NCBI GenBank assembly: GCA_951812755.1
Contig: OX638329.1
Location: forward strand, 5,154,522 to 5,218,521
Length of the DNA stretch: 64,000 nucleotides
Direction: 5' to 3'
Source of the DNA: an uncultured Latescibacterota bacterium
Lineage (GTDB): Bacteria; Latescibacterota; UBA2968
Shown: positions 4,542 through 24,305 of the stretch, piece after piece
Position numbering within the stretch: position 1 is the stretch's first letter
Layout: every line of letters begins with the position of its first letter
Made by a program: the position numbers and the translations under genes
Notes under the pieces: generated by a model
What the model was told of the DNA's origin: nothing
The model's input: the letters and a program-made list of their open reading frames with translations, nothing else
Databases searched by the model: none

Positions 4542-4570
4542 TTGACCCCAAAAATTCTGACATTTATACT
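4542..4570 (+). promoter_or_regulatory. Sigma70-like promoter of the arsC-like gene, copy 2 of a duplicated promoter
   Basis: TTGACC (4542-4547), 17-nt spacer, TATACT (4565-4570), 38 nt upstream of the ATG at 4609. Near-copy of 3581-3609. Confidence 0.7.
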
Positions 4571-4608
4571 CCCTTTGAGACACTCTTCACCCAAAAAGGA
4601 GATTTAAC

Positions 4609-4959
4609 ATGTCAAAAATCACCATCTACCACAACCCTAACTGAAGTAAATCCAATGGCGCAATGGATATATTGCGCGCTGACAACGTCGAGTTCGACGT
4701 CATTGAATACTTAAAAACACCGTTGAGCGAACAGGACTTGAGAAAATTTCTCGCACTCCTGCCCGGTGAACCCAAAGACCTGATTCACCCCAGTTCTTTT
4801 GAAGACTTAGGGCGCAACATAGATGACTACAATACCCCCGATGCACTCGTCAACTTGCTCATAGAACATCCCGAAGTCATGAACCGTCCCGTGTGTATTC
4901 TCGGAGATCGCGCAGTCATTGCCCGACCCTCAGAAGCCATACATGAACTCCTCACTTAA
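4609..4959 (+). CDS. arsC: ArsC/Spx-family reductase, probable selenoprotein (in-frame TGA at the catalytic position)
   Basis: A 116-residue thioredoxin-fold arsenate-reductase family protein if TGA at 4642-4644 is read as selenocysteine. The N-terminus is SKITIYHNPN-U-SKSNGAMDIL, so the TGA falls exactly on residue 12, the catalytic Cys in the classic H-N-P-x-C-S-K-S motif. The family C-terminus is intact: Arg93 (MNRPVCILGD) and Arg106 (AVIARPSEAIHELL) match known anion-binding arginines. AGGAG at 4597-4601 sits seven bases before the ATG at 4609. An ATG at 4663 is downstream of the catalytic site and has no ribosome binding site. A SECIS-like hairpin begins 13 bases after the TGA. Promoter (4542-4570) and terminator (4962-4997) make it monocistronic. 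Substrate may be arsenate or a disulfide/peroxide; the ArsC fold alone does not decide. A nonsense-mutated pseudogene is the alternative. Confidence 0.82.
4645..4677 (+). other. SECIS-like stem-loop downstream of the arsC UGA
   Basis: GCGCAAT (4658-4664) and ATTGCGC (4671-4677) form a perfect 7-bp stem with loop GGATAT (4665-4670). The loop starts 20 nt after the UGA and opens with two G residues. Published bacterial SECIS rules, as I remember them, ask for a loop 16-37 nt from the UGA, 3-14 nt long, with a G in its first two positions. All are met. Confidence 0.75.
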
Positions 4960-4961
4960 AA

Positions 4962-4997
4962 AAACAGCCGCCGAGACCTGCACCTCGGCGGCTGTTT
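4962..4997. terminator. Strong bidirectional Rho-independent terminator
   Basis: AAACAGCCGCCGAG (4962-4975) and CTCGGCGGCTGTTT (4984-4997) form a perfect 14-bp stem with an 8-nt loop, two bases past the arsC stop. A-tract to the left and T-rich sequence to the right let it serve the convergent gene at 5017-5805 too. Confidence 0.88.
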
Positions 4998-23216: not shown

Positions 23217-24305
23217 ATGATCACCTACGAAACACTCGGCGTAAAACCATTTATCAATGCGAGTGGCACCATTACCACACTGGGCGGTAGCTTAATGTCA
23301 GATGAAGTGCTGGAGGCGATGTGCGCGGCAGGAGGATCATTTGTCGATTTGAACGACCTGCTCGTAAAAGCAGGCGAATATCTGGCAGACCGCATTGGCG
23401 TACCCGCGGCCTTTATCTCGTGCGGCGCAGCCAGCGGTGTACAATTGTCCGCTGCGGCGTGTTTGACAGGACCTGACATAGCAAAAGCGCGCCAGTTGCC
23501 GCATACAAAGGGATGGAAGAACGAATTTGTAATCAGCCTGGTCGATAGCCATACGTACATCCATCAGGGCATTGAAGTCTGCGGAGGCAAACTCGTGCGG
23601 GTTGGCAGCAAACAAGCGGTAACCAGCGAAGACCTCATTGGCGGAATCGGTGAAAAAACAGCGGCTGTGGTACATTTTTTGGGTAAACAGAGCAAAGAAC
23701 AGCTTGCAGAAATCATTGCTGGTGCCCAAAAAAAAGGCGTACCCGTCATGGTAGATGCGGCTGCACAACTGCCTCCCCGTTCAAACTTAACCGAATTCGT
23801 CGAAATGGGCGCGAGCCTGGTGACATTCAGCGGCGGCAAGGGTTTGTGCGGACCTCAAAACAGCGGTCTGGTCATAGGCAAAGAGGACTACGTAGAAGCC
23901 GTGCGGATCAATGCGAGTCCGCATTCGGCCATTGGACGCGGCATGAAAGTGGGAAAAGAAGAAATCCTGGGCTTGATCGCGGCTATAGATCTGTTTTTGA
24001 GCCGAAGCGATCGCGAAGACCGCCAGCGCTGGCATGGGCAAGCTCGCGTTGTCGTAGATGCAGTCAAAGATATCGCAAACGCATACCTGATGACCGAAGG
24101 ACAGGATGCCGCGCCCGAATTCGCGCCCCGCGCATACATAGACTTGCCGGACGAACAGCGCGATGCCGTAATCCACGCATTGAAAGAAGGCGAGCCGTCA
24201 ATTGTCGTACGGAGAAGTTCCAGAGGTATTTTGATCGACCCGATGACCATGCAAACGGGTGAAGAAGCCGTAGTCGCAGAAAAATTGCGGGAGGTATTGA
24301 CATGA
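23217..24305 (+). CDS. SelA-like PLP-dependent lyase/aminotransferase
   Basis: A 362-aa fold-type I PLP enzyme of the SelA-like/DgaE group. The PLP lysine is expected in TFSGGKGLCGPQNSGLVIG, with VPVMVDAAAQLPPRSN providing the Asp that contacts the cofactor ring. The N-terminus YETLGVKPFINASGTITTLGGS is typical. It is shorter than true selenocysteine synthase and lacks an N-terminal SelA extension, and its neighbours are catabolic. D-glucosaminate-6-phosphate ammonia-lyase-like chemistry is a better guess. It overlaps the next gene by four bases (ATGA). Confidence 0.85.
   Translation: MITYETLGVKPFINASGTITTLGGSLMSDEVLEAMCAAGGSFVDLNDLLVKAGEYLADRIGVPAAFISCGAASGVQLSAAACLTGPDIAKARQLPHTKGWKNEFVISLVDSHTYIHQGIEVCGGKLVRVGSKQAVTSEDLIGGIGEKTAAVVHFLGKQSKEQLAEIIAGAQKKGVPVMVDAAAQLPPRSNLTEFVEMGASLVTFSGGKGLCGPQNSGLVIGKEDYVEAVRINASPHSAIGRGMKVGKEEILGLIAAIDLFLSRSDREDRQRWHGQARVVVDAVKDIANAYLMTEGQDAAPEFAPRAYIDLPDEQRDAVIHALKEGEPSIVVRRSSRGILIDPMTMQTGEEAVVAEKLREVLT

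Follow-up and report, generated by a model that had tools for sequence, protein, structure and literature searches.

The window, a stretch of 64,000 nucleotides from an uncultured Latescibacterota bacterium (GCA_951812755.1, contig OX638329.1), carries a gene of the ArsC family with an in-frame TGA at the codon for the catalytic residue. The ATG at 4609 opens a frame that runs through the TGA at 4642-4644 and continues for 104 sense codons to a TAA at 4957-4959. The features of the locus are as follows.

4542-4570, + strand: promoter-like site TTGACC-17-TATACT, with 10/12 matches in a consensus scan, by itself not evidence of function

4597-4601, + strand: Shine-Dalgarno sequence AGGAG, read from the sequence and retained in members of the genus

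4609-4959, + strand: predicted selenocysteine (Sec)-containing ArsC-family gene, 116 aa, with UGA as residue 12

4642-4644, + strand: predicted Sec-encoding TGA, codon 12, at the catalytic-Cys position

4658-4677, + strand: putative bacterial SECIS hairpin GCGCAAT-GGATAT-ATTGCGC, on the basis of bSECIS model fit, covariation and stability against synonymous shuffles

4685-4700, + strand: second hairpin ACGTCG-AGTT-CGACGT, 6 bp, 41-56 nt after the UGA, invariant in nucleotide sequence

4962-4997, + strand: terminator-like 14-bp hairpin 3' of the stop codon, folding at -27.1 kcal/mol and kept by most genus members

An initial annotation of this DNA had described the promoter, AGGAG and terminator as intact. 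This holds for the AGGAG; the promoter-like site is weak alone, with two such sites seen against 0.9 expected in the consensus scan, and the 14-bp hairpin is present but fails the T-tract rule of the terminator scan.

If the TGA encodes Sec, the product would be MSKITIYHNPNUSKSNGAMDILRADNVEFDVIEYLKTPLSEQDLRKFLALLPGEPKDLIHPSSFEDLGRNIDDYNTPDALVNLLIEHPEVMNRPVCILGDRAVIARPSEAIHELLT, with the active-site motif H8-N-P-N-U12-S-K-S. It belongs to the ArsC family by its PF03960 profile match (37.9 bits, gathering cut-off 24), and its AF2 model (pLDDT 83.7) resembles the ArsC structures 3rdw and 1i9d (TM 0.84-0.87). Arg93 and Arg106 are invariant in an alignment of Sec and Cys homologues alike. Sequence, profile and alignment agree with the initial annotation, which had seen an ArsC-family protein with TGA in place of the catalytic Cys at residue 12, followed by a frame of 104 codons with both arginines conserved.

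We surveyed 60 genomes of relatives and found an in-frame, TGA-containing homologue in 22, the window genome counted. The TGA occupies the identical codon in all 22 genes, each from a distinct genome, with an equal number of codons after it, and every one of them encodes the UxxS motif (U12-S-K-S15 in the window gene). Their products are 60-97% identical to the window protein, they form one clade in the tree (support 99/97), and among 386 genomes chosen as relatives the Sec form is confined to one class of Latescibacterota. Distant homologues (~40% identity) have Cys at the aligned position. The alignment that the initial annotation had proposed as a check thus places either U or Cys at exactly residue 12, and an in-frame UGA aligned with the Cys of homologues is a recognized criterion for a selenoprotein. 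Cys96 occurs in 17/22 Sec genes and is therefore not a conserved residue, leaving Sec12 as the sole conserved chalcogen, which suggests a cycle of the monothiol type, aided by an external thiol.

The window genome carries a second ArsC-family gene with an in-frame TGA, which encodes a Spx-like protein with an NRUSTC (UxxC) motif (G000:C1:3621830-3622165; L015 1483-1842). It has a perfect 8-bp hairpin, GTGAAAGC-GTG-GCTTTCAC; we read the gene in nine members of the genus, and the hairpin is conserved there.

The ArsC fold raises the question of arsenate. The protein could be a true glutaredoxin-type arsenate reductase in which Sec12 in place of Cys12 improves turnover; we regard this as possible but rather unlikely. 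H8, U12, R93, R106 and the fold are all retained, and the best sequence relatives with a solved structure include R773-type ArsC. Against this reading, every Sec member has His at the position of Arg60 in the alignment; of the R773-type arginine triad, R93 and R106 are kept and Arg60 is replaced. Arg60, Arg94 and Arg107 have been called essential in E. coli ArsC (PMC3169414). The protein also scores 86.4 bits with TIGR00014 (arsenate reductase, glutaredoxin; equivalog), under the curated cut-off of 106.05. A search of the window genome for arsenite exporters found neither Acr3 nor ArsB, and Acr3 is present in just 6/22 genomes with the Sec gene. None of seven neighborhoods examined contains an ars operon, and the seven relatives share no gene neighbors except for two of them (G011, L163; G012, L168), where the Sec-ArsC gene lies within the same cluster of leucine-synthesis-type genes, named by eye. 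G012 has two tRNA-Sec matches and carries both a Sec ArsC and a Cys ArsC. Lack of Arg60 is, on its own, compatible with arsenate reduction; with His60 throughout the Sec clade and no ArsB or Acr3 in the window genome, the main substrate is probably something other than arsenate, and a selenol-based thiol/oxyanion oxidoreductase appears likelier. The Arg60-to-His change, which together with the conserved second hairpin goes beyond what the initial annotation had reported, suggests that the name "arsenate reductase" is a misnomer for Sec-ArsC.

Ordinary ORF calling starts at the ATG at 4663 and yields a 98-aa frame in which the active site is lost, just as the initial annotation had foreseen; automatic annotation would truncate the Sec-ArsC gene and drop its active site in this way. 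It is very improbable that this shorter frame is the real gene, with the TGA a true stop and translation restarting at 4663, since conservation between the Sec genes and the Cys homologues extends to codons 1-11 and the YHNPN motif, a SECIS signal is present and codon 19, the would-be start, is CTG, ATA or CAG in 12 of the 22 members. We give almost no credence to a nonsense mutation in a decayed pseudogene or to a sequencing error at a TGC or TGT: a TGA is one substitution from a Cys codon, but the identical TGA recurs in 22 genomes, which excludes an error at 4642-4644, the downstream codons evolve under purifying selection (dN/dS 0.13-0.19), in line with the earlier view that the gene is not decayed, and the Sec apparatus is present.

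The window genome, a single contig of 6.53 Mb that is 99.6% complete, contains selA, selB, selC (tRNA-Sec) and selD, the set expected of a genome with a selenoprotein gene, in agreement with the earlier proposal that the organism decodes Sec. The tRNA-Sec, at 73.3 bits, lies above the cut-off of 47 and is called tRNA-SeC, anticodon tca, by ARAGORN; selB scores 385 bits (cut-off 242); selA (494 bits) lies directly upstream of selB on one strand, and selD is the neighbor of tRNA-Sec, directly upstream of it. The selD gene (L001 1597-2637, - strand) has its own in-frame TGA (SCGGUASK) and a subsequent hairpin. An open frame in the window (23253-24005) matches the SelA profile weakly (E 8e-9) and is probably another PLP-dependent enzyme. 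Among the 60 relatives, tRNA-Sec is carried by 21/22 genomes with the gene versus 21/38 without it (Fisher p 0.0007, kinship ignored). Neither tRNA-Sec nor selB was found in G024, which has the gene (87% complete, 780 contigs), probably owing to its fragmented assembly, and selB was not found in G005. A changed code that assigns UGA to Trp or Cys, or nonspecific readthrough, would be in keeping with the open frame, and we found nothing further in its favor; it is hardly tenable in a genome with tRNA-Sec, SelA, SelB and SelD where TGA also serves as a stop, the second ArsC gene having both an internal and a terminal TGA.

Decoding of the TGA as Sec is further supported by the hairpin that follows it. 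The initial annotation had proposed as a bacterial SECIS a 7-bp hairpin with a GGATAT loop, starting 13 nt after the TGA. It is present (stem 4658-4664 / 4671-4677, loop 4665-4670), and RNAfold adds a G.U pair, giving an 8-bp stem with a GATA loop, G first, 21 nt past the UGA, at -9.7 kcal/mol. A published bSECIS model (PMC13188914) asks for an apical loop of 3-9 nt, a stem of 4-16 bp, a G in the first two loop positions, a loop 16-37 nt from the UGA and an MFE of at most -7.5. The window hairpin falls within all of these limits; most other lineages do so only with a mismatched stem. Outside the genus, the register of the stem is shifted by 2 nt and, beneath two closing pairs, the stem is interrupted by a mismatch, usually U.U; for these two reasons a strict bSECIS scan missed most non-genus members. 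In 13 representative Sec genes the hairpin has a mean z of -2.04 against protein-preserving synonymous shuffles, compared with -0.15 for the 77 Cys homologues, which lack the hairpin (Mann-Whitney p 1.4e-7), while the remaining windows scanned along the Sec genes gave z between -0.6 and +0.4. Compensatory changes point the same way: four pairs are altered on both sides, where shuffles give 0.7, and pairing is abolished when the partner is slid out of place. These sequence data give good support to the window gene as a genuine selenoprotein gene, and the Sec reading of the initial annotation stands.

We also describe a second hairpin, at 4685-4700, in which codons 27-30 are flanked by codon 26 on one side and the opening two bases of codon 31 on the other. 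Codons 27-30 (GTC GAG TTC GAC) are identical in 22/22 Sec genes, nearly all other codons varying, and the invariant stretch reads GTCGAGTTCGACGT. Among other codons for conserved residues with a synonymous choice, His8 alone is likewise invariant (13 representatives). The chance of such a four-codon run is ~1e-13 if the 13 representatives are taken as independent, and less extreme given their relatedness. The hairpin is paired in 13/13 representatives and its stability moderately exceeds that of synonymous shuffles (mean z -1.42). As it shows no variation, covariation cannot test 4685-4700 as RNA, and it could equally be a DNA site or a protein-binding site.

Several other accounts of this element were considered and set aside. 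It is not a repeat or regulator site found genome-wide, the exact 16-mer being unique in the window genome with no other match at fewer than two mismatches, nor is it common to the Sec genes of this genome, since neither the second ArsC gene nor selD shows it downstream of the UGA. A stem joining both hairpins is predicted in the window gene and missing in some lineages, so we do not claim it. Rfam returned no match. Viral contigs held no relatives of Sec-ArsC; a search of them for the TGA and the second-hairpin motif at fixed spacing gave five matches, all of which encode unrelated frames and are thus due to chance.

The Sec-ArsC mRNA may tentatively be viewed as carrying a two-part recoding or regulatory signal, in which the bSECIS is combined with a sequence-specific second hairpin under strong selection at the nucleotide level. 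The second hairpin might, for example, slow the ribosome or bind a further protein, either a second SelB or some other RNA-binding protein; if so, it would help recoding or control. This invariant hairpin offers a simple mutational test case for whether bacterial Sec insertion can involve more than one cis element.

Bringing these lines together, we consider it very likely that the UGA at codon 12 is decoded as Sec, through SelB, tRNA-Sec and the hairpin at 4658-4677, in an ArsC-fold enzyme, most likely of the single-selenol type, whose main substrate is probably not arsenate. SelB and tRNA-Sec would act at codon 12 under the guidance of the hairpin, yielding a 116-residue thioredoxin-like protein in which Sec12 lies at the N-terminal end of helix 1 and the ArsC anion site keeps Arg93 and Arg106. 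In what we rate the most likely chemistry, a single-selenol (monothiol-type) step, Sec12 would attack an oxyanion or an oxidized or thiolated substrate, and the intermediate would be resolved by a glutathione-like thiol or a glutaredoxin. The data establish the gene, the decoding apparatus, the conserved TGA and hairpin and the similarity in fold; from these we infer the actual insertion of Sec, as well as the substrate and reductant.

ArsC selenoproteins have precedents. A 2008 survey of the Global Ocean Sampling (GOS) data listed 77 UxxS and 42 UxxC sequences (PMC2398784), the former as "arsenate reductase, UxxS", so that the initial annotation was right in stating that such proteins had been predicted from marine metagenomes; they were listed again in 2022 and 2026 (PMC9312934; PMC13188914), including MBT3519430.1. 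Among the papers searched that mention both Latescibacteria and selenocysteine or selenoproteins, none describes these genes in its title or abstract. Plasmids gave more than 3,000 matching records, all below 60% identity, and the five matches listed are annotated as arsC. By motif and profile, the window protein is assigned to ArsC selenoprotein family 1 (UxxS), with which it shares Sec at the catalytic position, a U-S-K-S or U-G-K-S motif (UxxS), the PF03960 fold and a bSECIS hairpin (PMC2398784). It is set apart from family 1 as published, on a comparison of descriptions, by its occurrence in complete or near-complete Latescibacterota genomes with the Sec apparatus, by His60 and by the second invariant hairpin. 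A type of selenoprotein that had come mainly from ocean reads is now placed in one Latescibacterota class with a full Sec apparatus; what is new is the second hairpin, invariant across 13 lineages, and the second Sec-ArsC (UxxC) in the same genome. ArsC-like family 2 (UxxC; cd03032 Spx-like, cf. NF041106 ArsC_rel_Se_1) shares the superfamily and Sec at the same position, but the window protein is UxxS rather than UxxC and does not match NF041106. The likeness to R773 ArsC (1i9d, 1jzw) extends to the fold, H8, position 12 and R93/R106 (R94/R107 in R773) at ~30% identity, and the differences to Sec12 for Cys12, His for Arg60, a score under the TIGR00014 cut-off and a genome with no exporter of the ArsB/Acr3 type. 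ArsC-YffB proteins (2kok, 1rw1), proposed to be glutathione-dependent thiol reductases (PMC3169414), likewise have the ArsC fold but not the full Arg triad; unlike YffB, where most of the triad is missing, the window protein keeps two of the three arginines and is much closer in sequence to classical ArsC.
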